22,967 bases of DNA, taken from a virus. The translations under genes were made by a program, and so were the position numbers. Below are positions 1,262 to 22,967 of the stretch, piece after piece (position 1 is the first letter of the stretch; each line of letters opens with the position of its first letter). The DNA is taken from positions 1 to 22,967 of the IMG/VR virus record IMGVR_UViG_3300009786_002043, one strand, 5' to 3'. The notes under the pieces were generated by a model, which saw nothing but the letters and a program-made list of their open reading frames with translations, made no database searches and was not told where the DNA came from.

Positions 1262-3604
1262 TTAATAAATTCCCATTTGCCACTGTGTCCCTGTTGGTCT
1301 GACTCCTAAAGACTTAAATGTTAAATCTGTTTCGTTAAATGAGACGAATGCTTTTGAACTGTAATCGAAGCTCAAATATGCCTTTCTATCTCCATCTGAT
1401 GCTGCCAGAAGAGTATTGGTGGTATCGCCAAATCCCGTAACGCCTGTATCTTGTAAGGACACAAAAGAAGTGGCCACAGATTGCCCAGTCTCCCAAACAT
1501 CTGATACATCATTATAAACAGATATTGCACTAGAATTATCAAAGAAATATAGTCCAGATTTAAGAGGAACCAATTGGCCTTCATACTTTACAGTTCCTGG
1601 CATGTCCGTTAATTTCCTAATCAGTTGCACAGGATCACTTGTCACTCCTTCTGTTCGGTAGAAACTTTTTAATCGGAATGTAGCGCCAACTCCATCATTT
1701 CTGATTATGTATCCTGTATTGTTTTTATAAGCTGTTCTATATGCACTAAAATGCCCATGGTTTGTAAATCCGCCATTATCAAATGTTGCTACATTATTTT
1801 TTAATTCCTCTGCGGAGTTCTTGTAATTTGAATCTGCGAATGTGGATGATGACGAATTCAAAGTTGTTAGATTTTTTTTAACAAGTTCTTGATTCGTTAA
1901 AGACTCCCAACTGGAAGAGTCGGCCACGCCTAAGAAGAAATAAATATCTTCGAGAGCATTTAGGCCAATCCAATTCCACTGTCTTGGCAGAGAAGAAGGA
2001 CAGTTTGCCGCTATACAGTAAGTTCCTTGAAATGCATTATATGTTAAAAAATCAATGTCTTCTACCGTGTTAGCGTCAGTCGGTGCCCTTCCAGTGGCCC
2101 AATAAAGAATTGCATCTCCACCATTGCCAGATGTGGCTGTTGTTCTTTGTGCCATTCCATTATTTCGATCAAATTCTCGCACCAATTGATCCGAGTTGGC
2201 AACTTCGTGCACTCCCTCAACGTTTACTAAAAAAGAACTATCTATATTTAGAGTTTTTATGGGAGCAGGCTCTGTTTTAAATGTTTCTGATAAAAGACCG
2301 AATTCATAAGATCTTACATCAGTCGAAGAACCAGCAGAATAATTCCAAAGCCACAAATTTACATCCTCTACTACGTCAATAACATTAGGGTATTGTGTTA
2401 TTCTATAAGAATTCAAATCTGTGTCTGTTCGAACTGTTACATCATATAACCCTCCGATGCTATACGCTGCTCGTGCAGTTCTGTTGTTAGAATGTGTTAA
2501 ATCATCACTTAAAGACCATGTGTAAGACGTTACGGGATCAAGAGGATCATTATTTCCGTCAAGGGTTTCTCCCGAATAGGATTTGCCTGTCGAACTATTT
2601 GTCCCAGCCTCAATTTGAAGGTCTATAATGGTGCCAACTTTGGTTTTTAGAATAGGTGGGAATGTTGTTGTGAAGTCAGGAGGCACTACAGGGTCCGTTC
2701 CTTGAATCAGATTGCCGTTTTCGTCGTATCTGTCAGCGGATAATTTTAATTGGCCTGTTCTTTTAACTAAGTTTATAATTGCTTCGTCAGGAGCCTCAAT
2801 TCGGGCATAGATATATGCGGGAAACTCTAAAACCTCTTCACTTATGTCATTTTTAACAGTCAGGGAGACATCATACCTTCCTGGCACATGATAAGTCTTC
2901 TTAATCTTCCCCCCGTTAGCATCTTCTACAATTACATTGACTTCGTCTCCGGGCACTTCATCAGCAACCGAGATGGTAGAAACTAATGATAAATTTGTTT
3001 GATCTCCAAAGTCCCATGTGTAATGTATATCACCTGTGGTTCCATCTGTTCCGAGTTGAAAACTAAGTTCATTAAATTCCACGGTAAAAGGAACTATTCC
3101 TGTTGTTCTGTCGGCTGTGAACCACACCCTCGGTTTTAGAACCAATGACCTGAGGAAATTAATTCGCCCTTCCATGGTTTCCCCTAAAGGCTTCTTATCA
3201 ATGGTGCCTTTTATCCCAACAAATTTTTCTATTGCAATAACTGCATCTTTTATTTGATTGTGGTGGGATGCCATTACATTTTGGGTGACGTTTGTTATTT
3301 TTTTAGATTTAATAACATCTTTGAATCCAGGCAATATATCTAAGCCAGAAAAAACATTGTCTACTTTAGAACTATAAAAAAACGATATGGCTCTTTTGTC
3401 TGGTTCGCTACATTGTTCTGTCAAAGTGATCAAACCACTGGCGGGAAAATTAGCAAGAGCCAAACTATCGTTTGTAACGGTTATGCTCTTGTCCCCAGGT
3501 TTATAATCTTCTGAGAGCTTCACCCTCGCAGAATCATGCACTTCATATAAATTTGCGTCATTATCAAGTGTGCCCGGGTAATTGCTAGAACTAGGTATTG
3601 TCAT
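1262..3604 (-). CDS. Large PKD-domain tail appendage protein with kelch-like C-terminus
   Basis: 780 residues with an ATG start and GGTG seven bases upstream. Residues ~1-135 are the same anchor domain as in its two neighbours; the signature is ASHHNQIKDAVIAIEKFVG near 111-129. A PKD fold follows at ~159-256, with YTWDFGDQTN near 198 and YHVPGRYDVSLTV at its end. A second, more divergent PKD-like domain lies at ~320-400 (SYTWSLSDD, then GLYDVTVRTD). The rest (~410-780) is not PKD. It has a Trp/Tyr-rich central region and ends in kelch-like strands (GLYFFDNSSAISVYNDVSDV, then repeated Tyr/Ser strands). PKD domains are beta-sandwiches that commonly mediate surface or glycan contacts; here a receptor-facing or capsid/tail-decorating role is inferred. 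It lies 13 bases downstream of the shorter paralogue and 49 bases upstream of the repeat-bearing one. Confidence 0.8.
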   Translation of the reverse strand: MTIPSSSNYPGTLDNDANLYEVHDSARVKLSEDYKPGDKSITVTNDSLALANFPASGLITLTEQCSEPDKRAISFFYSSKVDNVFSGLDILPGFKDVIKSKKITNVTQNVMASHHNQIKDAVIAIEKFVGIKGTIDKKPLGETMEGRINFLRSLVLKPRVWFTADRTTGIVPFTVEFNELSFQLGTDGTTGDIHYTWDFGDQTNLSLVSTISVADEVPGDEVNVIVEDANGGKIKKTYHVPGRYDVSLTVKNDISEEVLEFPAYIYARIEAPDEAIINLVKRTGQLKLSADRYDENGNLIQGTDPVVPPDFTTTFPPILKTKVGTIIDLQIEAGTNSSTGKSYSGETLDGNNDPLDPVTSYTWSLSDDLTHSNNRTARAAYSIGGLYDVTVRTDTDLNSYRITQYPNVIDVVEDVNLWLWNYSAGSSTDVRSYEFGLLSETFKTEPAPIKTLNIDSSFLVNVEGVHEVANSDQLVREFDRNNGMAQRTTATSGNGGDAILYWATGRAPTDANTVEDIDFLTYNAFQGTYCIAANCPSSLPRQWNWIGLNALEDIYFFLGVADSSSWESLTNQELVKKNLTTLNSSSSTFADSNYKNSAEELKNNVATFDNGGFTNHGHFSAYRTAYKNNTGYIIRNDGVGATFRLKSFYRTEGVTSDPVQLIRKLTDMPGTVKYEGQLVPLKSGLYFFDNSSAISVYNDVSDVWETGQSVATSFVSLQDTGVTGFGDTTNTLLAASDGDRKAYLSFDYSSKAFVSFNETDLTFKSLGVRPTGTQWQMGIY

Positions 3605-3617
3605 TTATTTTCACCAA

Positions 3618-4664
3618 TTAAGATACAAGGATTGAATCCTCTAAAAAAATACGTTTTAATTTTCCACTAGAAAATATAATGATTATGTTAACATCATATG
3701 TGCCTGGCGAAGCATACGTGTGTTTGACGGCATGTTTATTAGGATCATAAACACTTTCTTGCATTGCGTCATCAAAAACCCAGTGTCTTTCGGTGATGTC
3801 TCCATCTGTTTGATCTACAAATGTAAATTCCGTTGCTGTAGTGGAATTCAAAGTAGCTGTTTCTTGTGAAACTCCAACTAGTGCACTCGAATAGAAAAAA
3901 GCCTCCGTTTCATCTTTGTCTACAGAAATGTAGTTGTTTTTAGTTGTAACGGCTTGTTCGCCTAATGATGTCATAATGTTTAATTTGACAGAATAATTCC
4001 CTTCAGCAGTATAAGTGTGAACTGGGACCTCATCGGTGGAACTAGATCCATCCCCAAATTCCCACAAGTATCTAATGGGAGGGCCTCCTGAAAAATTAGC
4101 AAATGTAACTTTCAAAGGAGGTGCACCAACAACGGGATAGGCTCTAAATGATGGTTTGGGACCAAGAAATCTTTCTTCTTGTTTTTTAAGTATTTGGTTT
4201 AAAGACGCCCCAATTCCCACTGGTGATATATCATCGTTGGGGGTGCTCTTTATTCCTAAATCAGTTTCTATATTAATTATTGCATCTTTTATAGAATTAT
4301 GGTGCGAAGCCATTACTGCGCTTGTAACATTGGAACCCTTCGGCCATTGCCCCCTGATGGAACCAGCAAAACCTCTTATGGTGTCTTTGAATGTGTTTGT
4401 TGTTTTTTTTCCATAATAAATTAATTCATGATTTCCGGCTTCACCAACTTTGGTGTTTCCAATCCTTATTATCCCCGTGTCGGGGAAAGATGATGTGCTT
4501 TCTACCACTATATTTTTAGCGGTATAAACAACTGACTGAGAAACTTTTGCTTCTCCATTGTTTTTAGCTTCATATAATATATCTTTGTCGTCTTTTACAA
4601 TGGGAAATAAAGACAAATCTCCTGTTTTATATCCACTGGTGAAAGAAGAAACTTGATCAGCCAT
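3618..4664 (-). CDS. PKD-domain tail appendage protein (two PKD domains)
   Basis: 348 residues with an ATG at 4664; GAGGA lies about ten bases upstream, inside the end of the preceding gene, which it overlaps by eight bases. The N-terminal ~140 residues match both downstream paralogues, with ASHHNSIKDAIINIETDLG near 118-136. Two PKD domains follow. The first (~169-250) has the canonical YLWEFGDG and HTYTAEGNYSVKLNI. The second (~275-345) has ERHWVFDD and HTYASPGTYDVNIII. The protein stops just after the second PKD domain, so it looks like the minimal member of the trio, with no shaft or kelch-like part. Family knowledge supports an extracellular or virion-surface beta-sandwich; the precise location on the particle is inference. 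Confidence 0.82.
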   Translation of the reverse strand: MADQVSSFTSGYKTGDLSLFPIVKDDKDILYEAKNNGEAKVSQSVVYTAKNIVVESTSSFPDTGIIRIGNTKVGEAGNHELIYYGKKTTNTFKDTIRGFAGSIRGQWPKGSNVTSAVMASHHNSIKDAIINIETDLGIKSTPNDDISPVGIGASLNQILKKQEERFLGPKPSFRAYPVVGAPPLKVTFANFSGGPPIRYLWEFGDGSSSTDEVPVHTYTAEGNYSVKLNIMTSLGEQAVTTKNNYISVDKDETEAFFYSSALVGVSQETATLNSTTATEFTFVDQTDGDITERHWVFDDAMQESVYDPNKHAVKHTYASPGTYDVNIIIIFSSGKLKRIFLEDSILVS

Positions 4665-5393: not shown

Positions 5394-5954
5394 ATGAATA
5401 GACTTAAAAATACTAGGGTGTATTTGTGTGGCGCAATGGATCGAGTTCCTGACGGGGGAACCGCCTGGAGAGATGAAATAACTCCTTTGCTGGAAAGCAA
5501 AGGAGTTATTATCATTAATCCATGTAAAAAACCAATAGACGTAGGCATTGAAGACAGTGTTGCTAGAAAGAAAATAGAAAAATACAAAAGAGATGGCGAT
5601 TTTGATAAAATTAGACCTGAATTTGGAGTAATTAGAACCGTAGACTTAAGATGTGTAGATATATCAGATTTTATAATTGTAAATATTGATATAAACACTC
5701 ATGCATGTGGAACATATGAAGAAATCACCGTGGCCAATAGGCAGAAAAAACCAATTTTAATTTGGTGCACCCAAGGTAAGGAGTATACTCCAAACTGGTT
5801 GTTTTTCATGTTGCCACATCAACATGTTTTTGGGAACTTAGAAGACTTAATGTATTACTTGAATAAGATAGACACCTGCGAAGGCGAAATCGATCATTGC
5901 AAAAGATGGTTCTTTTTTAATCAAAAGTTTAAAAAATCTGATACCCAAGTATAG
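5394..5954 (+). CDS. Nucleoside 2-deoxyribosyltransferase-like protein
   Basis: 186 residues, and the only plus-strand gene in the window. The N-terminus RVYLCGAMDRVPDGG (~8-22), followed by TAWRDEITPLLESKG, matches the first beta strand and helix of the nucleoside 2-deoxyribosyltransferase superfamily. The central VDISDFIIVNIDI and then CGTYEEITVANRQKKPILIW match its Asp-containing strand and Gly-Thr-Tyr-Glu-Glu active-site helix, where a Glu is the family nucleophile. Family members exchange or hydrolyse N-glycosidic bonds of deoxynucleosides or nucleotides, acting in nucleotide salvage or modified-base metabolism. The substrate here cannot be read from sequence. The C-terminal ~40 residues (Cys/Phe/Lys-rich) look lineage-specific. 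Its 3' end overlaps the convergent GT-like gene by 26 bases. Lone opposite-strand placement suggests an acquired moron-type cargo gene. A member of a related base-processing branch is the main alternative. Confidence 0.75.
   Translation: MNRLKNTRVYLCGAMDRVPDGGTAWRDEITPLLESKGVIIINPCKKPIDVGIEDSVARKKIEKYKRDGDFDKIRPEFGVIRTVDLRCVDISDFIIVNIDINTHACGTYEEITVANRQKKPILIWCTQGKEYTPNWLFFMLPHQHVFGNLEDLMYYLNKIDTCEGEIDHCKRWFFFNQKFKKSDTQV
5477..5510. repeat. Perfect 15-bp inverted repeat with GGAA tetraloop inside the deoxyribosyltransferase-like gene
   Basis: The left arm 5477-5491 (AATAACTCCTTTGCT) is exactly complementary to the right arm 5496-5510, with GGAA (a GNRA-type loop) between. It lies at codons ~28-39 of the plus-strand gene. 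No T-run follows on either strand, so it is not a typical intrinsic terminator. Confidence 0.95.
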
Positions 5955-7298: not shown

Positions 7299-7303
7299 CT
7301 CCT
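7299..7303 (-). promoter_or_regulatory. Ribosome binding site for the GTG-start fibre gene
   Basis: The minus strand has AGGAG six bases before GTG at 7292. It overlaps the TAG of the upstream SET-domain gene (7302-7304), so termination and re-initiation are probably coupled. Confidence 0.75.
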
Positions 7304-7835
7304 AGTCAAATAGTTGTTTAAGTAAACCTAAATTATATAGGTCATGAGATATAAAGGTTTCCCAACTATCTATGGAGCCTTTATCCTCTTCTTTATATTT
7401 ATCAGTCCACCTCAATATCTTATTCCATGGATCTCCATAATATCCAAGGACTTCTTCATCTTTATTTATATCTTTAATTACCCGATATAGGATTGGCCCC
7501 GCAGCGGGGTTCTTCTTTTTATAGTTCTTATGTAACGAATCTTTAATGAATTCTATTTCAACGTTTTGTTCTTTTTGGTCTATGGCATGATTTATAATTG
7601 CGGCAAATCCCATAGGAACGATTTGATGAGTTATTTCCTCATTTGATGCAAATTTATATTTATTAGCGTATTGAGTACAAGCGTGGGCAGTTGAATCCGA
7701 TTTAACCATTACTCCGATTATCTCTAAATAATTGCCTTTTTGTATTTTTTTTTGGGAAAATACACCAGAGCCAGCGCCTTCAATGGAAGAATCTTTAATA
7801 TAAAATCTAGGGTCAGTTTCACTTATAATAATCAT
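7302..7835 (-). CDS. SET-domain protein, putative lysine methyltransferase
   Basis: 177 residues, ATG at 7835. The order of motifs fits the SET fold. GAGSGVFSQKKIQKGNYLE (~20-38) is the N-terminal GxG-type SAM-binding strand pair. GFAAIINHAIDQ (~76-87), with Asn82-His83, corresponds to the NHS/NH pseudoknot motif. KDEEVLGYYG (~125-134) supplies the conserved Glu-Glu and a Tyr-Gly. There are no pre-SET or post-SET cysteine clusters, as expected for compact viral or bacterial SET proteins. Such enzymes transfer a methyl group from S-adenosylmethionine to protein lysines; the target here is unknown. Placement between tail genes allows modification of a virion protein or of a host protein. The upstream small acidic gene ends three bases before this ATG, and the next gene's ribosome binding site overlaps this stop. 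Confidence 0.8.
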   Translation of the reverse strand: MIIISETDPRFYIKDSSIEGAGSGVFSQKKIQKGNYLEIIGVMVKSDSTAHACTQYANKYKFASNEEITHQIVPMGFAAIINHAIDQKEQNVEIEFIKDSLHKNYKKKNPAAGPILYRVIKDINKDEEVLGYYGDPWNKILRWTDKYKEEDKGSIDSWETFISHDLYNLGLLKQLFD

Positions 7836-8107: not shown

Positions 8108-8584
8108 TTAAACAAATGACAATCGCCAATTCCATGTAATTTGCATGGACGAAGTTTTAGTAAGGTCAGGGAAAGTAACCATGCTATATAAATCTCCATT
8201 GTTCATTTGAAGAGCCATTTCGCTCAATGCATATCCATTGGCTTCTGTGAAGGTTAAAACAGTGGTGAAAATAACTTGAGTTGTAGCATTAGGATCTACT
8301 GTGGAGAGCACTCCTTTGTTGGCACGAGTTACTCCGAAAAGGCCATTGACTGAATCAGTTACAAATTTAGGGGAATCTCCTTGTGTCCCTCCATCCCCAA
8401 ATAACATCCTTGATATAAAAAAGTCATAAGTATCACCTACTACATTGGCAAGAGAATTTGCCAATGCCTGTCTACCCTTTAATAGAACTGTATTGCTGAA
8501 ATTGACGGTCTTATCGGGACGATCATCATCGTATGTGATGATCATTTCTACTTCGCCCTTAGTTTTTATTTTATCTTTGTGCAT
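8108..8584 (-). CDS. Baseplate- or fibre-associated structural protein
   Basis: 158 residues. The ATG at 8584 overlaps the stop of the giant wedge gene as TAATG, with AAGGAG about ten bases upstream inside that gene's end. An internal ATG at 8545 (MIITYDDDRPDK) is an alternative start. Residues ~30-55 are helical (GRQALANSLANVV). RMLFGDGGTQG at ~59-69 and ALSEMALQMNNGDLYSMVTF at ~118-137 resemble a small beta-rich protein often encoded next to tail protein I. No enzyme motif is present. By position I infer a baseplate-to-fibre adaptor or minor tail component. The family resemblance is from memory and should be treated as moderate. Confidence 0.65.
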   Translation of the reverse strand: MHKDKIKTKGEVEMIITYDDDRPDKTVNFSNTVLLKGRQALANSLANVVGDTYDFFISRMLFGDGGTQGDSPKFVTDSVNGLFGVTRANKGVLSTVDPNATTQVIFTTVLTFTEANGYALSEMALQMNNGDLYSMVTFPDLTKTSSMQITWNWRLSFV

Positions 8585-11500
8585 TAAATGTTGTCTCCTT
8601 CAATTTCTTCATCATCAGCCCATTCAATTTCTAATGTGATATTTTCTTCTTGTGATATAGGCTCTTTAATTTGGTCATCGTTTGCATTTAAAGCCTCTGC
8701 TGCAAAGGCTGCAAAAGGAGCAGCGGTATCTGTATTTAGGGATATCACTTCATTTCCTCTTCTATCAATAAAATTAAAATCATGTCCTAAGTACTGATAC
8801 ATTGTTGGTTGTACATATGACAATCCATCAACTGTTTCTCCACTATATCCTTCTGTTTCTCCTCCATACCCAGCTTTAGGCTGTATGGAAATGTTTTCTT
8901 TAGAATATTTTAAAATAGAATATGTAACTGAAGTTCCTCCACTAACTTTCCAACTTTCTTCTGGACCATCAACATTTATTGTGGTGCCATCTATTCCTGT
9001 TACTTTATAATAGTTTGATCCAATTAACACTAAAAAGTTTTCTTTAAATAGATTGTCATCAACTACGATGGCAGGGGGATTTGAGCCATTGACTATGCCT
9101 AATCCTGTTTCATGATTAGAGGATGTTACAATTTTCATACCTCTATAATCCAGATATCCGGCTTCTGAATCAACTAATCTCTTATAAACATTAAAACTTT
9201 GCCCAGAGGCATCTCCAGCAGTATATCCACTTATATAAAATTGATAGTCTTGTGAGTCAACAAATCCTATTATTTTATATTCAGTTCCACTTAATACAAA
9301 ATAATCACTTGTGTCTGCTACATCTCTAATGTCATTCGCACCACCACCAGAAGGAGAGGAGTCAGTTATCTTGGCCCTTCTACTTATTGCAAGACTTCCA
9401 TTGTCGCTAGAAGACACATGATTGTTGCTATCATCTAAAATATTATAAGACAATGAAGATGAATTGCTTTTTGGCAATGCCTCAGTGGGGTCGTTGAGGA
9501 TAAGACTGCCATCTGACAATATGTTGGATATGGTATATATCCCATTTAAAAATCCCGCCTCTGTTATTTGCACTTTCCATGCGGTTCCTGTATAGGACGA
9601 GTCATTGTTGTCATCCCAATCTGTTTTTATTCCTTTTTCTATGAAATCAACCGTTGTATCACTAAATGCGAAAACATCATCTTGCTCAATAGCGGCTGTT
9701 CCTGAATAAGAATCATTTGATAACCTAAAAGCAAAAGATGATGTGTTTAAAGGCTCAGTTATACCAGATATATTGGCCATATGAGTGTCTGGACTGGCAA
9801 TGCTATAATTTCCCGCATTCGCAGAAGGAGACAATATCTTTAACACATTGGAGCTTGTATCTAAAGGTAATAAGTCGAATCTTACATCAGGTGCGTAGAT
9901 TACTATATTGTCATTAAACCCAGTTGCAGATTGACTTGATACTTCTGTGGTGGAAAAAGCAAGCATGTTTCTTTTTACAAATCCAGAAGAAGTTGTGGGA
10001 GAACCATTGACAAAATCAGTTTTAGACATGCCTGCCGTGCCAGAATCTGTAAGAGTGATCGTCGTGTTACCGTCCGGCCCGAAAGTACTTTGTGCAATGG
10101 TAACAACTGCGCCCTCAGCCGTAGCAGTGAATCTGGTACCAGATGGCCCACTGCTTGTGTTAATGACGTTCATCAAATTTGTAGCAGTTTGATCATTGCT
10201 TGTGTCGGACTCCCAGGTGCCATTTACCGAACTTTGAGATCCATTTACGAAATCATAATTAGTTCCGTCAGAAGCAATTAAATTAACCTTATCCGTAGAA
10301 TTAAGTTCAGTATAGTCAGTAATTGTTACCGTCCCTGTTGCTTGCGTGCTCGATGTGAACGCATTGTCGAACATTGCTCGGAAGAAAACTTTTTGCTGAT
10401 TACCCGATAATACATTTTCAGTAATGGAATATTTTACCGTTCCCTCTAAATTCTCTATTGGGGATAGAACAAATTCATTAAATCCGCCGGAAACATTCAC
10501 TTGGTGCAGCACAGAATGAAATGGAGTGTATTCTTTAATAATAGATTCTGCTTCATCGATTCTATCTGTAGAAAGATCCTTTATTTCTAAATCTAAATTA
10601 AATTTGCTGCTTTGACAATATTGGCATTTGTCAACAAAATACTTATCTAAATGGCATGGATCAGTGGAATCTCTTAGGCTACCATTATATTCTTCCATAT
10701 TATAAATATTTTCACTATAAGGGAACTCCGTCCTTATTTTTCCATAGAGCACAGGATCGTGAAAAGGATGACGATCCGGTATTAAGACATCAAAGAGGGC
10801 GTCGTCTTCTTCAATTAGTCTAACGTTCCAATTTTTGGGAGGATAATCTTGTAAATCCTCATCACGTTGATCCGCTAATGGTAAAGATCTTATGTAATTT
10901 TCTTTGACTTGTTCAGTTGAACTAGGAACATTAATAACTTCATATAATATTTTTACAAAATCTCCTTCTGACAATGTTATTGGACTAGATGAAAGCAGAT
11001 GACCCACCCAAGTCATCGTGGTTTCTCCTTCTGAAGTAGAAAAAGAAACATGATCATCTGTTAGTTCTGTATAAGATGATGACCCTTTTGGTCTTCTAAA
11101 TATACTGGTATTAGCTGTGCTGCCGCCTGTGAAATTTGTCTTGGTCATGCCGCCAGTGCCGGAATCTGCAAGAGTGACTGTTGAGTTCCCATCCGCCCCC
11201 GAAGTGCTTTGCGAAATAGTAACAACCGCTCCAACTGCCGATGCAGAAAATCTAGATCCAGAAGGCCCACTGCTTGTGTTGATAACGGCAGCTAAATTTG
11301 TGGCAGTTTGATTATTGCTTGCGTCAGCCTCCCAGGTGCCACTTGTCGAACTTTGACTTCCATTTATGAAATCATAATTAGTTCCATCAGTAGCAATTAA
11401 ATTAACTGCGTCACCTGAATTAAGTTCAGTGTAGTCAGTAATTGTTACTGTTGCAGTGGCGGCCAGCGGATCGTCCACACCACCAGTGAAGTCTGTTTTG

Positions 11501-13668
11501 GACATACCGCCAGTGCCGGAATCTGTAAGAGTGGCCGTTGTGTTTCCATACGTCCCTGAAGTGCTTTGCGTAATAGTAACAACTGCTCCAACTGCCGATG
11601 CAGAAAATCTGGTGCCAGAAGGCCCACTGCTTGTGTTGATGACGGTAGCTAAATTTGCAGCAGTTTGATTATTGCTTGCGTCGGACTCCCAGGTGCCAAA
11701 TGCCGAATCTTGATCTCCATTTACGAAATCATAATTAGTTCCGTCAGTAGCAATTAAATTAACCTTATCCGTTGAATTAAGTTCGGTGAAGTCAGTAATT
11801 GTTACTGTTGCAGTGGCGGCAATGGCCCCATCGCTTATGTGTCCCAATGCCACTTTTTCTAATACAAACATGGGAAGCCCACCAGTAAAGTCTGTTTTAG
11901 ACATACCGACCTCACCAGGGTCAGTCAAAACAATAGTTGTATCTCCGGCTTCGCCAGCCGAAACCTGTGTTATCGTCACCGATTCGTTGCTGGCAGTGGC
12001 GGTTAATTTAGAATTGGCGTTTAAACAGATCGCTAAATTAGCAGCAGTGGAATAGTTGCTGCCATCAACTATTGCCCAAGTTGGGGAATTTGTATTAGTG
12101 GTTGTGGTGGCGACTCCATTTGATGTGGCTGTGGCCGTTATTACAGTTCCATCAGTCGTAGTGATGGCAATGTAATGAGTGGGGCTGGAGCCAGACGATC
12201 CCGACCCCGCCAAGTTTTCCACTGCCTGAATAACAACTGTACCGCTTGATTTGTTGGCTATCGCATCTGTTTTAAATGACTCTTGCCAAGTATATGGAGA
12301 AGTTATTTGCCACAACTTTGTAACTTTCTTAAGCTCCATATCTGCCTGTAGAAAAGATTCCTTTAAACTCCCACTAGTGCCTTTTCGCTTGAATAAAGGA
12401 ACCGCAGTTTTTATTTGCCTTCTCCACAACGTTGGATCGTCGGATTTAAGCCTCAAGTTAAACATGTTACTTAAAAGATTTAATAAAGATTCATGAGTTG
12501 AATTGGCGTCCAGCAAATCAACAGATTGATTAGCCATGTCTTCTACAAATGTAAATCCTTTGGCTATAGCTTTATGAAATTTATCTAACGTATCGGGAGT
12601 AACATCTGCCGCAGAAAGTTTTGATTTGTATACCTCAGGAAGATATCTCTCTAACAAAGTTGTGTACTTTTCAGGATTAGTAAAGTGAGCAGGAATACTA
12701 GTTGTTAATACAGTACTTCCTTCTAAATTGAATTTTAAATAGGATGAAATTGAATCCCCGGCAGCATTAGGAGTCCATGTCCAACAAACGATGTAATCTC
12801 CTTCACGACTTTGAACAGGATTCCAATTATATTTAAAATTACCAAATTGATTGTTTCCATCTGCATCCAGAGGTACGTTTTCAATAAAAGCATTATCTGT
12901 ATCTGTTGATAGCCAAGCGGGATTGTTCTCATCCCCTAAGACTTTAACAGGGACAAGTTCGCTGTAATAATTCGAACTTTTGTTAGTAGTATCATTTAGT
13001 TCGGATTTTAATCTTTCAACTTCTTTTAATTGAGCCTTTGTAGGCAGGCCGCCAGCAAAGTCTGTTTTAGACATTCCTACGGCATCAGGATCAGTCAAAA
13101 CAATAGTTGTATTTCCGGCTTCGCCAGCATCAACCTGCGTTATTGTCACGACTCCACCATTGGCGACAGCAGTTAATTTAGAATTGGCATTTAAACATGT
13201 TGCTAAGTTAGCGGCAGTGGAGGATTCACTTCCACTGACTAGTGCCCAAGTTGGAGAGTTTGTATCAGTGGTTGTGGTGGTTCCGCCATTTTCTGTAACT
13301 GTTGCCGTTATTGTAGTTCCGTCAGTCGTAGCAATGGTAATGTAATGAGTGGTTGCCACCAAATTTGCTGCGTCAGTAATAGTAACTGTACCTGTCGCAT
13401 GCGAATAAGCACACGCAATGGCTTTGGCTTTTTCATATTCCGCTAAAACTTTAGAGTTTAGATGGTTTTCTTCAAAAATGAAAGGAGTCCCTGAAAAATG
13501 GTTTCTCCCTAAAGAATATATTGTAACCTTATCAACTTTATATGGATTTGAAATAAAGCATTCATCTGACCCTGGCGTGAGGAGTTCTATAGATACAATG
13601 TCTGCTATTGTTGGACTTTCGTCCAACTTTTTTATTTTTTGATTATTACTAGTTTTATTTATAGACAT
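8584..13668 (-). CDS. Giant baseplate wedge protein: tail protein I core with five inserted repeat modules
   Basis: 1694 residues, ATG at 13668, six bases after the gp6/J-type gene. Residues ~338-450 resemble the phage tail protein I family (P2 gpI), which joins the baseplate wedge to fibres: LERYLPEVYKSKL, FVEDMANQSVDLLDANSTHE, LWRRQIKTAVPLFKRKGTSG. A second core segment, ~905-1065, continues that fold (LPLADQRDEDLQDYPPKNW, ESIIKEYTPFHSVLHQVNV). Five ~115-residue beta-type modules lie at ~90-209, 474-598, 617-730, 736-850 and 1109-1224. A Cys cluster, C1005-H-x8-C-x2-C, could bind metal. The C-terminal ~470 residues are beta-rich without a recognised family. P2 gpI is about 176 residues and Mu gp48 about 190, so this protein is greatly expanded. 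The core assignment is good; module function is unknown. Confidence 0.8.
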   Translation of the reverse strand: MSINKTSNNQKIKKLDESPTIADIVSIELLTPGSDECFISNPYKVDKVTIYSLGRNHFSGTPFIFEENHLNSKVLAEYEKAKAIACAYSHATGTVTITDAANLVATTHYITIATTDGTTITATVTENGGTTTTTDTNSPTWALVSGSESSTAANLATCLNANSKLTAVANGGVVTITQVDAGEAGNTTIVLTDPDAVGMSKTDFAGGLPTKAQLKEVERLKSELNDTTNKSSNYYSELVPVKVLGDENNPAWLSTDTDNAFIENVPLDADGNNQFGNFKYNWNPVQSREGDYIVCWTWTPNAAGDSISSYLKFNLEGSTVLTTSIPAHFTNPEKYTTLLERYLPEVYKSKLSAADVTPDTLDKFHKAIAKGFTFVEDMANQSVDLLDANSTHESLLNLLSNMFNLRLKSDDPTLWRRQIKTAVPLFKRKGTSGSLKESFLQADMELKKVTKLWQITSPYTWQESFKTDAIANKSSGTVVIQAVENLAGSGSSGSSPTHYIAITTTDGTVITATATSNGVATTTTNTNSPTWAIVDGSNYSTAANLAICLNANSKLTATASNESVTITQVSAGEAGDTTIVLTDPGEVGMSKTDFTGGLPMFVLEKVALGHISDGAIAATATVTITDFTELNSTDKVNLIATDGTNYDFVNGDQDSAFGTWESDASNNQTAANLATVINTSSGPSGTRFSASAVGAVVTITQSTSGTYGNTTATLTDSGTGGMSKTDFTGGVDDPLAATATVTITDYTELNSGDAVNLIATDGTNYDFINGSQSSTSGTWEADASNNQTATNLAAVINTSSGPSGSRFSASAVGAVVTISQSTSGADGNSTVTLADSGTGGMTKTNFTGGSTANTSIFRRPKGSSSYTELTDDHVSFSTSEGETTMTWVGHLLSSSPITLSEGDFVKILYEVINVPSSTEQVKENYIRSLPLADQRDEDLQDYPPKNWNVRLIEEDDALFDVLIPDRHPFHDPVLYGKIRTEFPYSENIYNMEEYNGSLRDSTDPCHLDKYFVDKCQYCQSSKFNLDLEIKDLSTDRIDEAESIIKEYTPFHSVLHQVNVSGGFNEFVLSPIENLEGTVKYSITENVLSGNQQKVFFRAMFDNAFTSSTQATGTVTITDYTELNSTDKVNLIASDGTNYDFVNGSQSSVNGTWESDTSNDQTATNLMNVINTSSGPSGTRFTATAEGAVVTIAQSTFGPDGNTTITLTDSGTAGMSKTDFVNGSPTTSSGFVKRNMLAFSTTEVSSQSATGFNDNIVIYAPDVRFDLLPLDTSSNVLKILSPSANAGNYSIASPDTHMANISGITEPLNTSSFAFRLSNDSYSGTAAIEQDDVFAFSDTTVDFIEKGIKTDWDDNNDSSYTGTAWKVQITEAGFLNGIYTISNILSDGSLILNDPTEALPKSNSSSLSYNILDDSNNHVSSSDNGSLAISRRAKITDSSPSGGGANDIRDVADTSDYFVLSGTEYKIIGFVDSQDYQFYISGYTAGDASGQSFNVYKRLVDSEAGYLDYRGMKIVTSSNHETGLGIVNGSNPPAIVVDDNLFKENFLVLIGSNYYKVTGIDGTTINVDGPEESWKVSGGTSVTYSILKYSKENISIQPKAGYGGETEGYSGETVDGLSYVQPTMYQYLGHDFNFIDRRGNEVISLNTDTAAPFAAFAAEALNANDDQIKEPISQEENITLEIEWADDEEIEGDNI
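9998..10344. repeat. Repeat module E in the giant wedge protein
   Basis: Encodes residues ~1109-1224 on the minus strand. Hallmarks are TVTITDYTELNSTDKVNLIA, the NTSSGPSGTRF turn and closing GMSKTDFVNG. It belongs to the same subfamily as modules C and D but lies on the far side of the second tail-I core segment. Confidence 0.9.
10615..10656 (-). other. Possible metal-binding Cys/His cluster in the giant wedge protein
   Basis: Encodes Cys1005-His1006, Cys1015 and Cys1018 (CHLDKYFVDKCQYC). CxxC plus a Cys-His pair in one short loop is a plausible zinc or iron site. The rest of this 1694-residue protein has only five other cysteines. Confidence 0.4.
11119..11463. repeat. Repeat module D in the giant wedge protein
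   Basis: Encodes residues ~736-850. It is directly adjacent to module C and closely similar in DNA as well as protein, with the same NTSSGPSG turn and closing GMTKTNFTGG. Confidence 0.9.
11479..11820. repeat. Repeat module C in the giant wedge protein
   Basis: Encodes residues ~617-730, with TVTITDFTELNSTDKVNLIA and closing GMSKTDFTGG. It forms a tandem pair with module D. Confidence 0.9.
11876..12248. repeat. Repeat module B in the giant wedge protein
   Basis: Encodes residues ~474-598. It belongs with module A in a second subfamily marked by TNSPTWA, AANLAICLNANSKLTA and TTIVLTDP. It carries a short Gly/Ser insertion (GSGSSGSS) near its start. Confidence 0.9.
13043..13402. repeat. Repeat module A in the giant wedge protein
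   Basis: Encodes residues ~90-209, upstream of the tail-I core. It shares long identical DNA stretches with module B, for example around the TTIVLTDP segment, although the two are more than 1 kb apart. Confidence 0.9.
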
Positions 13669-13673
13669 TTTTA

Positions 13674-15227
13674 TTATTCAAAAGTAAATGTTATGGTAAT
13701 GGTGCCAGGTCGAATAATTTCGTAATATTTAGTAGTTACTAATGATCCTGAATTAGCATCATCATCTGTTGTGAATTCAACGGAGTAACTATCAATTTGT
13801 TTGATGTCGGCAATATCTTTAATTAAATTAGTTTCTTTAAGATCATCTCCCATTTCCCAACGACTTAAAGAAAAGAATTCATTAACTCTATTTAAAACTC
13901 TTTGTCGGTATTCATCAACAAACTTCTTATAAAACTTATCTACAGAGCAATCAATCGCCACATCAACAAGCAAAACGTCTCCGTCCCGTATGCAAACGAA
14001 GTCTGTAAACATTTTCTTTTCATCAATTTCTTCGTTTAAAGCAATCTTGAGTCCTTCGGAAGATTCTTCTAACGCCACCTCTCCTGCTCTGGATAAAATA
14101 TATAAGTCAATTATGTTTCCTGCGCATCCATGATTTCTAAGAATGGATGTCGCCTTTCCCACTTGCCCATTTGTGCTAGTAACAAATTGTTCAGCGATAG
14201 TTTTATAATCTAGACCAGTGACGGCTCTGTCTTGAGTTCTCAAATAAGGAGGAAGTTTTCTTCTAATGTCTTCAATTGTATCGCCTGCAAATCCGTATTT
14301 TCCATTGGTGTAATTTCTAAAGGTCGCAGGTATTGAATAATTGAACCCCGGCACAGAGAAGTTAGTTTGGTATTCTACAAGTCCAGCAATTATATTACCT
14401 GACGTTCCCCCGCCGGTTCTATAGGTGGCTTTTATTTCAGATGATGTAGAGGGTATCATTCCGGCTCGATTGTTTCCAAAAATAATAAATCCATTAAAAT
14501 CAGAATCGTATTCAAAAATATATTCTCTTCTAGGATTAGAATCTGTGAAATAATCCACTTCCGTCCATCGTACCCCATCCACATCAACACGAAGCGAATC
14601 AAATATTACAGGCCCTTCAACGAGCGACAGAGTCTGTCCTACTGCTCCGCTGCCAACGAATGTGTCTTGTACAGTGTTTCCTTCAACAGCAACTATGTTG
14701 GCGTTAACTACATCCCCCGCAGAGACAATAATATTATCTTCATAAATAGGGTTATTGTTTTCATCGGCTGGAAACAACTCAAGTCTGATAGGCGATCCAT
14801 CTGACACTGTGTTAATAGCAAAAGGGGTAATGATTGATAAGTCAGTGGTCAAAGGACTAGTAAGGCTTCCCGTCCACATAGAAGCAGCGCCAATTGGGCC
14901 AACTGGTTTTAAACCTACTAATTTAGACAACCTGAAAGCATTTTCTACCTCTGTGACTGTGTCGATGAATAATTCATTTACTATTTGATCCATTTTGAAA
15001 GAAAGAGTGTCCGCTAAAAACGCCCAGTTTTCAATTAGCATTATTGCTAAAGATGATTCCACAAAATCTGAGAAGTCCTCTTCGAAATTTTGTTTGATAT
15101 AATCAACCAACCTAGTTTTTAATGACCAAAAATCTTGACTAGTATAGTTAAGATTAAAAATAGGAGGATTTTTAATCAGTTCCGATTCACCAATAGGTGC
15201 TGCATCTCTTAGACAATTGTCAGGCAT
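13674..15227 (-). CDS. Baseplate wedge protein, gp6 / gpJ family
   Basis: 517 residues, ATG at 15227 with TTAGGAG about ten bases upstream. The N-terminal segment YTSQDFWSLKTRLVDYIKQN and LAIMLIENWAFLADTLSFKM (~62-81) is the helical start seen in T4 gp6-like proteins. The middle, FIIFGNNRAGMIPSTSSEIK then TYRTGGGTSGNI, is the Baseplate_J signature. The segment PPYLRTQDRAVTGLDYKTIA is the conserved helix and turn after it. The C-terminal part is a beta-alpha domain (VDVAIDCSVD, then DEYRQRVLNRVNEFF). gp6/J proteins form the inner baseplate wedge ring that controls sheath contraction. Length is between P2 gpJ (about 300) and T4 gp6 (660). It sits between gp25-like and tail-I-like genes, the expected W-J-I order. 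Confidence 0.9.
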   Translation of the reverse strand: MPDNCLRDAAPIGESELIKNPPIFNLNYTSQDFWSLKTRLVDYIKQNFEEDFSDFVESSLAIMLIENWAFLADTLSFKMDQIVNELFIDTVTEVENAFRLSKLVGLKPVGPIGAASMWTGSLTSPLTTDLSIITPFAINTVSDGSPIRLELFPADENNNPIYEDNIIVSAGDVVNANIVAVEGNTVQDTFVGSGAVGQTLSLVEGPVIFDSLRVDVDGVRWTEVDYFTDSNPRREYIFEYDSDFNGFIIFGNNRAGMIPSTSSEIKATYRTGGGTSGNIIAGLVEYQTNFSVPGFNYSIPATFRNYTNGKYGFAGDTIEDIRRKLPPYLRTQDRAVTGLDYKTIAEQFVTSTNGQVGKATSILRNHGCAGNIIDLYILSRAGEVALEESSEGLKIALNEEIDEKKMFTDFVCIRDGDVLLVDVAIDCSVDKFYKKFVDEYRQRVLNRVNEFFSLSRWEMGDDLKETNLIKDIADIKQIDSYSVEFTTDDDANSGSLVTTKYYEIIRPGTITITFTFE

Positions 15228-15254: not shown

Positions 15255-15743
15255 TTAATTCTCACCGGCTGCATCTCTCGATAAGACCGAAACGTCACTT
15301 CTCGTAGATAAATTAGCTGATGTACTAGTCCCACTCAGTGGAAGTTCTAAAACTAATTCTTGTAAATCCAATATGGATTCAGGATCAAAGAACACAATTT
15401 TAATACTCAAAATTGCTCCCTGCTCAGTTAAATCATCATGTTTATCTAGACTATCTTGCTCTAATCCGTTAGTTACTTCTATGGCCTCTATCGTTATTCT
15501 AGGCTCCCACTGACTAATGGATTGAATAATCATGCCCCTCGCAGCAGAAATCAGTTCCAGATCGTTATGTTCAAACATTAACGTTCTCAAAGGAGTCCCA
15601 TATGTGGGCATAAAAACTCTTTCTCCAGGATTAGTTAAAAGTAAAGACAACATATCCGCCTTAACTTGATCTATACCACTTTGGGTATGGAGCAAACCCT
15701 TCGCATCGGGAATAATCGGATATGGCATGCCTTTAAATTTCAT
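15255..15743 (-). CDS. Baseplate wedge protein, gp25 / gpW family
   Basis: 162 residues, ATG at 15743; the ribosome binding site is weak (AAAG). Motifs fit the GPW_gp25 family: GIDQVKADMLSLLLTNPGER (~28-47), FMPTYGTPLRTLMFE (~49-63), and ISQWEPRITIEAIEV (~80-94). It lacks any catalytic residues of a lysozyme, despite historic naming of gp25. The protein nucleates sheath assembly at the baseplate together with the gp6/J type protein encoded 27 bases downstream. The C-terminal ~30 residues are Ser/Thr-rich and probably disordered. There are no cysteines, in contrast to the hub and spike proteins upstream. Confidence 0.92.
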   Translation of the reverse strand: MKFKGMPYPIIPDAKGLLHTQSGIDQVKADMLSLLLTNPGERVFMPTYGTPLRTLMFEHNDLELISAARGMIIQSISQWEPRITIEAIEVTNGLEQDSLDKHDDLTEQGAILSIKIVFFDPESILDLQELVLELPLSGTSTSANLSTRSDVSVLSRDAAGEN

Positions 15744-19505: not shown

Positions 19506-19835
19506 TCAAAAAACAATTGAAGGTAATCTTATGTTGGTTCCTGATTTAAAATCAAAAATATCTTTAATTCCATTGATTTCCAATATTTTCCACCAGAAAT
19601 CTGGCAGTCCATATTCTTCATAAGAAACTAAATCTGGTCGATATTCATGACCTGGTCCTACTATTGTAAATCTATCTTCATTAGATAAAATTTTGTTCCA
19701 TCCTTTGTAGGTGTTTAAAGTTAAATACCCATTATCTGAGTATTTTAAGACTTTTGTATTGTTGTTATTATATCGACTAGTCGAAGCAACATAGTCGCTT
19801 GTTTCTGTTGTCAATATTTCTATTTTGTTTGCCAT
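19506..19835 (-). CDS. Baseplate wedge protein of gp53 / LysM-like type
   Basis: 109 residues from ATG at 19835 (MANKIEILTTETSDY), immediately after the TAA of the preceding gene. A TTG at 19871 would add twelve residues, but only by reading the end of that gene in another frame, so I use the ATG. The C-terminal half, ILSNEDRFTIVGPGHEYRPD then LVSYEEYGLPDFWWKILEIN and GIKDIFDFKSGTNIRLPS, fits the gp53-type and LysM-containing small baseplate proteins. In those, an Asp-Phe-Trp/Tyr-Trp segment is followed by a Gly-x-x-I/L-Pro strand. Such proteins bridge the hub or tube to the wedges (XkdP, Mu gp43 region and T4 gp53 are positional counterparts). No cysteines are present. Confidence 0.75.
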   Translation of the reverse strand: MANKIEILTTETSDYVASTSRYNNNNTKVLKYSDNGYLTLNTYKGWNKILSNEDRFTIVGPGHEYRPDLVSYEEYGLPDFWWKILEINGIKDIFDFKSGTNIRLPSIVF

Positions 19836-19836
19836 T

Positions 19837-20511
19837 TTACAGACCCCATTTCGTGCCATCGCCATAAGCAATTCGTGATTGTCCTGGTAAATCTTCGGTA
19901 GGATAAACTACTTCCCAATTACAAGTCACATCAAACTTATAAGGCAAAAAAGTGGCTGACCCAACTTGTCCACCTGACCGCACCCCATTATCCCAAGGAA
20001 CGTCTGTGGGGAATTGAACTGAATAACTTTTCAAAATAACACAAACTGGCATCCGATCTTGGCCGTTACCGGCACCACCAAGTAGTTGGCCACATTCAAT
20101 CCTGCAAACCGGCGGTGGCCTATAAGGGAATCGAGGATCATCCATTGGATATACAGCACTTTCAATTAGCCTTAAAGCCATTAGATTATCTTCAATATCT
20201 CGGTCTTCTATTACTACAAAATGGCACACCATAGTGATTGTCCTATTCTCGGAATGAGAATAGGTCTTCATTGGAAATGCTCTACCCATAATAGGTTCAT
20301 CATTCCAAGCTGCACTTTTTGTATCTGTTATCTCTGGTAGGACTCTAAGGTAAATGTCTTGTCCCATAATATAAAGTTTACATGCTTCCATGGGGATAAG
20401 ATTCCCCGTGGATGGCTCGGTGGCACGTCCCCAACCCTTTGGGTAAAGATGTTTGACCGGGTATTGTTTGCCCTGCGTTAGCTTTCCGGGTTTTTGTGCT
20501 TCATGTCCCAT
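19837..20511 (-). CDS. Tube-cap or hub-adaptor-like virion protein
   Basis: 224 residues, ATG at 20511 with AAGGA about nine bases upstream. I recognise no catalytic motif. KLYIMGQDIYLRVLPEITD (~45-63) and AFPMKTYSHSENRTITMVCH (~78-97) are strand-rich. CRIECGQLLGGAGNG (~137-151) and then MPVCVILKSYSVQFPTDVPW (~154-173) look like the strand-turn-strand end of tube-initiator proteins. YKFDVTCNWEVVYP follows near the C-terminus. Position directly after the tape measure and before the gp53/LysM-type gene is that of the tail tube initiator or hub adaptor (T4 gp48/gp54, Mu/P2 counterparts), which caps the tube at the baseplate. Six cysteines in 224 residues are notable. The functional call is by synteny and fold-like pattern, not by a strong motif. 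Confidence 0.6.
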   Translation of the reverse strand: MGHEAQKPGKLTQGKQYPVKHLYPKGWGRATEPSTGNLIPMEACKLYIMGQDIYLRVLPEITDTKSAAWNDEPIMGRAFPMKTYSHSENRTITMVCHFVVIEDRDIEDNLMALRLIESAVYPMDDPRFPYRPPPVCRIECGQLLGGAGNGQDRMPVCVILKSYSVQFPTDVPWDNGVRSGGQVGSATFLPYKFDVTCNWEVVYPTEDLPGQSRIAYGDGTKWGL

Positions 20512-20555: not shown

Positions 20556-22967
20556 TTATTTTCCAGTATTAATTACTTGTTTGTTTCCCATTTGTCCATG
20601 TTTACCGAATTGCCATTTATAATAGTTTGGGGAGCTTTTTGGCTGTACGTTCGATGTGGGGTCTCCACCATCAGTAGTTGATGGCGAACCCCCTGAAGAT
20701 GTATCCGCACCACCAGCGAGATCTCTCATAGCCTTTAGATGATCACGTATTTCAACTAAAGTTGCACATTGCTGATCTGTTGATGACGAAATCATCGATA
20801 GCTCTTTGCCTCCTACTGATGTGGACGATCTAGATCCTGATATGTCTCGTTGAACCCTATCGTGAATATCCCCTGTGGGCATACCTGCGCTCGCAGCAGT
20901 AGCGGTCTCTCCTAATCCGAACCAGGATGATGCGGCACCACCAATCCCCCCGGCGAGCATTCCCAAAGGCCCAAACATTGCACCACCAGCAGCACCACCA
21001 GCAGCACCGGCAAGAATTCCCATAATACCCCCACCCTCTTTCCCGCCAACAGCCTTGCCGGAACCAGACAGGGATTTAGATAGGCCACCAAGCGACCCGA
21101 CCGCTGTCGATCCGACCAGTCGGGCTGACTTGTCGCCTTCCAGAAGCATGCCTATCATTGCCGTATTATCTGCAATTGCGACAACATTCGTCGATATGTC
21201 CTCTAGGGGAGTTGTTTTTTTGGGAGCTTTTATTTTCTCTTCGCCACCAAAACCAAGCCAGTCCATAATACCGCCACCAACACCGCCAAGAAGGGCACCA
21301 CCAACACCCCCGACGAGCATTCCCGCTGGCCCCAATGCAGCACCAGCCATTGCTCCTGCGGCGGCACCACCCATTGCCCCGCTCCCGCTCAGTCCAGCTA
21401 AAGCACTTCCAAATCCACCGAATATTCCACTTAAAGGACCTCCAATAGAACCTTCTAATGCTTCTCCAACACCTCCTAAAGAAGCGCTAGCAACATCCAT
21501 GTTTGATGGAATAACCATTTCGCCAGGATGGAGCATTGCTAGTCCTCCGCTATGGACTTCAGGGGTTCCTTCCGCAAGTCCTAACCAGCCACCCACTGAC
21601 GAGGCCATCGACGATATACCCGCAAAGCCTGCCGTCAGGGTATCCCCTGCCGCACCAAGAAGATCGCCTTCCATAAGCTTGCCTCCAGCAGACGCTAGTT
21701 TGCCTCCAACTGCTGCTCCGGCGTCCCAGATAGCGCCTCCGATTGCAGCGCCCCCATCAATGAAGCTTGCTCCTATATTCCAAGCACCTTCCCCCACTGC
21801 GCCGACCATGTCACCGATGCCACCCAACAAACTTCCGCCTGCGTCCCAAAGTCCTCCTGCAAGACTTCCAACTGCTCCTACAAGATCTCCTGACATCAAA
21901 GCCCCGCCTGCGTCCCAAAGTCCTCCTGCAACATCTCCTATAGCACTTCCAATTCCTCCTGCGGCTCCAGAAATAACTCCACCTACTGCCCTGACTCCAT
22001 CCCCCAGCGGACCCATTGCATCTAATGTTCCTCCAACAAAATTATCGATTGGGTCTTTAAAGATCTTATAAACTTCAGCACCTGCCCCTACCACTCCACC
22101 TATAGCAGCACCAACTGCTGTCCCTACAACTGGAATGACGCTACCAATGGCGGCTCCAGTCATTGCCCCTGTGCCAGCGGCTCCTGCGACACCCAAAGCC
22201 AAATCTGCCGTAGAATCTTTTTCTATGCCAAGCATTCCACTAAACATACTGCCTGTGTCTGCCCCGCCGGTAAGAGCGCCTAAAATAGCACCTTCGCCTT
22301 TAGTCATTCCTAATGCTTCGGCTTCTGCTGCGCCAAATGCACCTCCAACAGCCAATGCAAATGGGCCAGCTGCCTTTCCAGCTACGGCTCCTGCTGCCTT
22401 ACCCATTCCTTTTGCAAGAGCACCGCCCGCCACTTTAGCAGCAGTTCCAGCACCCTTTGCAATCCCTGCGGTAGCCTTTGCTATAGCTGGGCCTGCTTTT
22501 GTGGACAACTTAGCAAGTCCTGGGCCTGCTACTTTTGTTAACTTACTCCCAACTTCTAAAGCATGTTTTCCTACCTTTGCCAGTCCCGGACCAGCATGTT
22601 TTCCTAAATTAGCTCCAACTTTTACAGCTTGTTTTGCTGTCGTCTTTAATGCTTTCGTGACTTTAGAAAGTTTACCCGCTCCGTTCCCTGCTGTGTCCGC
22701 TACTCTCTTCACTGCATTTCCTACTTTGCCCATTTTTACTTGTGCCGTTTTCATTGCAGGGCCAAACTTGCCATTGGCGTATTTGGCAAACACGCCCATT
22801 TTATTTTGTGCTCCACTTAATGCAGGGCCAAACTTGTCTTTTGCCACATTAGCAAACTGACCCATTTTTCCTTGTGCTGTTTTTAATGCTGGGGCAAGCT
22901 TGGTCTTAAGAGCACCTCCCACTTTTCCTATATTTTTTTGTACGCTTGGTGGCACCATATTCTTCAT
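20556..22967 (-). CDS. Tail tape measure protein (start may lie beyond right edge)
   Basis: 803 residues from an ATG that coincides with the last bases of the window, so a longer protein cannot be excluded. The N-terminal region is Lys/Ala/Gly-rich with three 22-residue repeats (GQFANVAKDKFGPALSGAQN and variants, ~14-79), then more imperfect KVAGPGLAK-type repeats to ~165. The middle is Ala/Gly-rich with hydrophobic stretches (GAAIGSVIPVVGTAVGAAI, ~270-288) and WDAGG repeats around 330-440. HSGGLAMLHPGEMVIPSNM (~472-490) is a motif common in tape measures. The C-terminus has a helical ATLVEIRDHLKAMRDLAGG. Tape measures set tail length and are ejected with DNA; the hydrophobic Gly/Ala segments fit membrane insertion. 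The long plus-strand open frames across this gene are shadows. Confidence 0.85.
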   Translation of the reverse strand: MKNMVPPSVQKNIGKVGGALKTKLAPALKTAQGKMGQFANVAKDKFGPALSGAQNKMGVFAKYANGKFGPAMKTAQVKMGKVGNAVKRVADTAGNGAGKLSKVTKALKTTAKQAVKVGANLGKHAGPGLAKVGKHALEVGSKLTKVAGPGLAKLSTKAGPAIAKATAGIAKGAGTAAKVAGGALAKGMGKAAGAVAGKAAGPFALAVGGAFGAAEAEALGMTKGEGAILGALTGGADTGSMFSGMLGIEKDSTADLALGVAGAAGTGAMTGAAIGSVIPVVGTAVGAAIGGVVGAGAEVYKIFKDPIDNFVGGTLDAMGPLGDGVRAVGGVISGAAGGIGSAIGDVAGGLWDAGGALMSGDLVGAVGSLAGGLWDAGGSLLGGIGDMVGAVGEGAWNIGASFIDGGAAIGGAIWDAGAAVGGKLASAGGKLMEGDLLGAAGDTLTAGFAGISSMASSVGGWLGLAEGTPEVHSGGLAMLHPGEMVIPSNMDVASASLGGVGEALEGSIGGPLSGIFGGFGSALAGLSGSGAMGGAAAGAMAGAALGPAGMLVGGVGGALLGGVGGGIMDWLGFGGEEKIKAPKKTTPLEDISTNVVAIADNTAMIGMLLEGDKSARLVGSTAVGSLGGLSKSLSGSGKAVGGKEGGGIMGILAGAAGGAAGGAMFGPLGMLAGGIGGAASSWFGLGETATAASAGMPTGDIHDRVQRDISGSRSSTSVGGKELSMISSSTDQQCATLVEIRDHLKAMRDLAGGADTSSGGSPSTTDGGDPTSNVQPKSSPNYYKWQFGKHGQMGNKQVINTGK
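21835..21931. repeat. 69-bp-spaced direct repeat in the tape measure gene
   Basis: A 28-base block is identical at 21835-21862 and 21904-21931. It encodes GGLWDAGG-type segments, one 23-residue period apart. Confidence 0.85.
22731..22928. repeat. 66-bp (22-residue) tandem repeat in the tape measure N-terminus
   Basis: Three consecutive units of 22 residues share KxKFGPAxxxAQxKM, with a partial fourth unit following. The first complete unit starts only 13 residues after the Met at the window edge. Confidence 0.85.

Follow-up and report, generated by a model that had tools for sequence, protein, structure and literature searches.

Five copies of a putatively portable decoration domain, likely derived from phage sheath domain II, in a baseplate wedge-like protein of an uncultured phage

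We examined a viral contig of 22,967 nucleotides (IMG/VR record IMGVR_UViG_3300009786_002043, hereafter the window), in which one ORF of 1694 aa (8584-13668, minus strand) contained five copies of a module that flank and interrupt a Tail_P2_I core. The question raised by this locus is whether these modules are integral parts of a tail protein, multiplied within its own gene, or portable domains inserted into it, and what such domains would contribute to the virion.

All five modules are encoded on the minus strand. Modules A (residues 89-208, 13045-13404) and B (residues 472-598, 11875-12255) formed one subfamily, with 71% protein identity, and modules C (residues 616-731, 11476-11823), D (residues 735-850, 11119-11466) and E (residues 1108-1223, 10000-10347) formed another, with 75-81% identity; identity between the subfamilies was about 38-48%. 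This division agrees with the original prediction, as does the presence of a conserved closing motif: across the five copies, which are 116-127 residues long, 33 columns were invariant, including D-G-T, T-W, T-A-x-N-L, V-T-I, Q and the closing G-M-x-K-T-x-F. When module D alone was used as a query, the other four copies were found with E-values of 1e-54 to 1e-9, far above chance, and the search gave no further match in the window. These similarities confirm the five modules and show that they are homologous. The long identical DNA stretches that had been described between copies were not seen, the longest identical run being 32 nt (between C and E).

The protein that carries the modules is a tail-tip protein of an uncultured relative of giant phages, and we assigned it to the Tail_P2_I/T4 gp7-like baseplate wedge proteins. 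The Tail_P2_I model (PF09684) matched at 12271-12585 with 25.1 bits and nine related records with 26-36 bits, all over the curated cut-off; a scan of the whole window protein gave 19.9, slightly below the cut-off of 20.6. The gene order is a further likeness to the wedge proteins T4 gp7 and P2 gpI. It comprises a probable tape measure (20556-22967, assigned by size, composition and position, its library match being unnamed), a wedge subunit (19506-19871), a gp25-like wedge gene (15255-15743), a gp6-like wedge gene (13674-15227), the host gene and a collar-fibre-like gene (8108-8584), the gp6-like and collar-fibre-like genes directly adjoining the host gene. The window protein differs from these wedge proteins in having about 1,100 residues before insertion and in conserved segments that are unnamed in the libraries searched. 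For the whole module-free chain, PDB sequence searches gave no match and fold comparison gave none that was reliable: a search of the PDB with a predicted module-free orthologue gave two matches below E 1e-3 at probability 0.18, and baseplate proteins were matched weakly. Because this fold search was unreliable (model pTM 0.35), the gp7-likeness of the host rests on the Tail_P2_I match and gene order.

Around and between the modules lie four core segments, all on the minus strand: residues 1-88 (13405-13668), found in most module-free orthologues; core segment 1 (residues 209-471, 12256-13044), colinear in orthologues; core segment 2 (residues 851-1107, 10348-11118), which is 48-60% identical in module-free orthologues and 96% identical in a close relative, L006; and a C-terminal segment (residues 1224-1694, 8587-9999), also found in module-free orthologues. 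Two tail-I core segments had been proposed amid the modules. The first carries the Tail_P2_I match and is retained, whereas core segment 2 had no tail-I match and no named family in the libraries searched, and is a conserved part of a larger protein.

A scan with core segment 2 yielded 80 loci; with LR756511 added and a duplicate of the L006 contig omitted, 80 loci with an orthologue were available, on contigs of up to 527 kb, some of them cut by contig ends and some near-duplicates. None of these loci carried a module at E<=0.01. Complete module-free orthologues were mostly 1,020-1,190 aa long with colinear core segments, and therefore the base protein has about 1,100 residues, to which the modules add about 600; a protein of normally ~180 residues, expanded by some 1,500, as originally assumed, is not what this clade contains. 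In the annotated phage collection, tblastn with module D found nothing, and the whole protein found only the core of LR756511. The comparison of orthologues thus indicates that the modules are dispensable additions to a conserved core.

At the insertion sites, the aligned module-free proteins have a few residues. On the predicted structure of the L086 orthologue, site A (77/78) falls in the turn joining helix 62-77 to helix 81-96, site B (330-335) in a loop between strands, the site shared by C and D (344-348) in the loop after that of B, and site E (601-604) in a loop within a low-confidence stretch. As the core model has a low overall pTM (0.35), these positions are valid locally only; at that scale the model suggests that the modules were inserted at loop positions of the host protein. 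Several module-free orthologues (L099-L105, L123, L128, L134-L142) were about 70-100 residues longer, and their core segment 1 match started only at position 44-58, suggesting that this region may take another, unrelated insertion.

The close relative L006 (the same contig as L085 and L165, and treated as a single phage) shows changes in the module set against a nearly constant background. Core DNA was 93-97% identical between the window and L006, and modules A, C and D were 89-92% identical to their counterparts, having been inherited vertically, whereas module B was absent. At site E the two phages carried modules of different subfamilies, with 56% DNA identity and a dS of 1.72 compared with 0.07-0.28 elsewhere; from the G-T-A-G-M-S codons at ~10041 to position 10000 and past it, identity was again ~99%. 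This pattern points to the loss or gain of B and to an in-situ replacement at E, with one boundary visible in the closing motif. Since C and D are 86% identical within the window, compared with 90% for C and 92% for D between the window and L006, the C and D copies predate the split of the two phages, and recent duplication inside the window gene, part of the original prediction, was rejected. With frames intact, modules A, C and D had dN/dS values of 0.19-0.31 between the window and L006, which indicates purifying selection; core segments 1 and 2 had 0.07-0.12.

Two viral scans with the modules gave 78 and 75 loci, partly overlapping, and a profile search across all of them identified 231 domains in 156 ORFs. 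After the modules were masked, 98 distinct ORFs fell into 23 host groups without mutual similarity at the threshold used. These include a tail sheath (phrog_23, E 1e-62; Phage_sheath_1C; including the L026 group), a tail protein with a tube-like segment (phrog_376/584; E 3e-201 for phrog_376), a tail spike with a T7-fibre-like N-terminus and beta-helix, a head-tail adaptor (phrog_211) and a virion structural or head protein (phrog_8455); many of the other groups had no assignment. Exchange between tail proteins, as initially suggested, thus describes part of the hosts, and the spread is wider, reaching the head-tail adaptor and head protein. The distribution of the family was patchy and copy numbers differed widely. 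No relative was found when 84,980 genomes of bacteria and archaea were scanned with two sets of patterns.

Modules in unrelated hosts were up to 89% identical in protein and up to 89% in DNA, identical runs between them reached 53 nt, and for 40 of 116 modules the nearest relative was in another host group. A module tree, built from few columns and with many unresolved forks, required 43 host changes, compared with a minimum of 22 and 68 in shuffles; in the same tree, again limited by few columns, the seven sheath modules needed seven host changes, and A and B clustered with modules of other hosts, apart from C and D. These comparisons indicate that one portable family is shared by many phage structural proteins that are unrelated to each other. 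In L042 (6996-9014) and L063 (7047-8990), as well as in L064, L065 and L067-L069, a complete module was located within another, at a beta-hairpin near position 78, and the outer module of L042 and L063, once rejoined, scored as a full module (118-126 bits). In L024 (7671-11324), tandem partial modules were found in which positions 45-114 were repeated and the first 38 positions were repeated separately, which suggests sub-module duplication.

Module D was modelled with AlphaFold from an alignment of 51 sequences. The single module was predicted with high confidence as a beta-alpha-beta domain (pLDDT 96.5, pTM 0.90) with strands at 2-9, 20-24 and 30-35, a helix at 51-63, and strands at 73-78, 81-89, 98-100 and 107-109. 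Fold and motifs were conserved across sequences down to about 21-40% identity. The only PDB match below E 1e-3 in a Foldseek search was a 498-residue chain of the phage Milano baseplate entry 8fqc (E 8.9e-4, probability 1.00, though with a TM-score of only 0.57), which is most likely the Milano sheath protein gp20; sheaths, a J-like baseplate protein and a major tail protein were among the viral models matched.

At the sequence level, the modules had no significant match in Pfam, NCBIfam or PDB searches, and to this extent the absence of a named family stands as originally proposed; fold and profile nevertheless place the modules near PF17481 (Phage_sheath_domII). The module profile gave five sub-threshold PDB sequence matches, two of them sheath entries, and the 8fqc entry includes gp20. 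The Milano stretch found by the sequence profile was 126-175, which is enclosed by the external sheath extension domain (residues 91-203, PMC10811340). When a profile of seven sheath extension domains was compared with the module profile by hhalign, the result was 93.5% with a score of 44.5, compared with at most 17.7 and <=1.9% in controls (other sheath domains, 24 core windows, a reversed profile and 100 column-shuffled profiles). Mu-like sheaths alone, whose domain Pfam names PF17481, gave 90%, and the C/D/E subfamily alone gave 4.7%. The PF17481 model itself had no match at E<=1 in the window or six related records and was not among the families matching 51 modules. Because C/D/E alone gave only 4.7% and PF17481 misses the modules, the link is one of remote homology rather than membership. 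Sheath domain II is the likely origin of the module.

The likeness to the sheath extension domain comprises the fold, the strand-helix-strand order, an alignable profile, a shared T-A-x-x-(L/I)-A helix motif and V-x-(L/I)-T ... G-x-x-G-N, as well as the character of an inserted, outward-facing domain (PMC10811340). The differences are that the sheath domain occupies one place in sheath proteins whereas the modules occur in many unrelated proteins, multicopy, swapped and nested; that the closing GMSKTDF segment is a feature of the modules; and that the window host is a Tail_P2_I protein and not a sheath, although some module relatives do sit in sheaths. PHROG 28344, a family without functional label, weakly matched most of modules A, C and D (best E 4.5e-4), and only 3 of 51 family members matched it.

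The idea of a portable decoration domain is strongly supported by the module-free loci, the changes seen in L006, the 23 host groups, the cross-protein DNA identity and the independent fold. We consider it probable that a portable decoration domain of the sheath-domain-II type, able to fold on its own, is present here in five copies, which occupy loops of a baseplate wedge protein like T4 gp7 and P2 gpI. By analogy with other phage decoration domains, accessory adhesion is the likely role, with cementing of neighbouring subunits as the second. A compact domain with presumably adjacent termini would enter loop tips, as the nested cases suggest, and copies would spread as coding DNA by recombination between conserved module-end codons; the closing GMSKTDF codons may serve as a crossover, as at the single swap boundary observed (site E). 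It is probable that the copies stand out from the edge of the baseplate and decorate the virion surface, where weak, multivalent contacts with polymers of the host surface or the environment would be their most likely contribution. Extra sheath domains sit away from the tube, and a contribution to adhesion or stability has been proposed for them (PMC9230969). On gut phages, Ig-like modules act as modular adhesins that confer binding (PMC13370021), and receptor-binding and baseplate proteins are enriched in domain mosaicism (PMC10684548). Fraser 2006, as quoted in PMC9230969, describes Ig-like decoration domains as portable between phage structural proteins. The present modules resemble Ig-like phage domains (BIg, FN3, PKD) as portable surface additions exchanged between structural proteins, and differ in their helix-containing fold of the sheath-domain type.

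The main competitor concerns the role: the modules may touch adjacent subunits of the baseplate or sheath and lend stability to a large baseplate, as structural fillers and not adhesins. The related Milano extension domain is cross-linked to its neighbour by an inter-subunit disulfide (Cys47-Cys182, PMC10811340), so that cementing would fit Milano equally well, and it was also proposed for extra sheath domains (PMC9230969); purifying selection and the spread into head, neck and sheath proteins are in line with it. However, 80 loci without a module, and a close relative with one module fewer and one swapped, are hard to square with a specific required interface. We regard cementing as a serious rival of lower probability, and favour accessory adhesion over it, arguing largely by analogy. 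Near-neutral accretion, in which loops tolerate modules and conserved ends recombine so that copies multiply with little function, would account for the module-in-module insertions and partial tandem copies (L042, L063, L024), the patchy distribution and the very different copy numbers, but dN/dS values of 0.19-0.31 in intact frames and the retention of fold and motifs in distant members make it rather improbable.

Two structural alternatives fared worse. Five copies in one protein, with C and D side by side, could be read as integral lobes of the tail-I fold expanded only by internal duplication; this was rejected as extremely improbable given the 80 module-free loci and 23 unrelated host groups, the confident fold predicted for a module on its own and the grouping of A and B with modules of other hosts apart from C and D. 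A divergent Ig-like, PKD or carbohydrate-binding family, for which weak Foldseek matches to antibody domains (E 0.27 and above) could be cited, is very unlikely and was likewise rejected: Ig, PKD, FN3 and CBM profiles had no significant match to the modules (for Ig, PKD and FN3, single sub-threshold matches, best E 0.06), a 13-residue helix is predicted between strands 30-35 and 73-78, which would speak against an all-beta Greek-key sandwich, and among solved structures the Milano chain alone gave a significant match. Returning to the portable decoration domain, it is conceivable, if doubtful, that this one family is a general virion plug-in of environmental phages, which enters loop tips of almost any structural protein as well as its own copies and is continually re-assorted by recombination at conserved ends, giving an interchangeable coat on head, neck, sheath, baseplate and spike.

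These analyses define a family, and its likely origin from sheath domain II, for a module that was missed by annotation libraries yet is widespread in structural proteins of uncultured phages. Among virion proteins, it gives a clear natural example of how a domain is inserted, lost, replaced and nested; with its clean boundaries it is open to direct testing, and it suggests that portable phage decoration modules extend beyond Ig-like folds.

Additional features were observed elsewhere in the window. A repeat at 811-885, 3203-3277 and 4242-4316 is common to three adjacent genes. It codes for an H-H-N ... D-A-I ... G motif (e.g. MASHHNQIKDAVIAIEKFVGIKG) and could be an assembly segment that the three proteins have in common; PKD domains occur in one of these genes (1262-3604), and a second (3618-4664) has a weak match to a baseplate wedge family. 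Two genes in the tail region were tentatively assigned by motif: 7302-7835 (minus strand), which we take to encode a SET-domain-like protein, and 5394-5954 on the opposite (plus) strand, presumably encoding a nucleoside 2-deoxyribosyltransferase-like protein. Finally, positions 1-300 consist of tandem 30/33-nt repeats that encode FSPIGFGPAPS and FTPISITGP units, at the end of a protein running off the contig.
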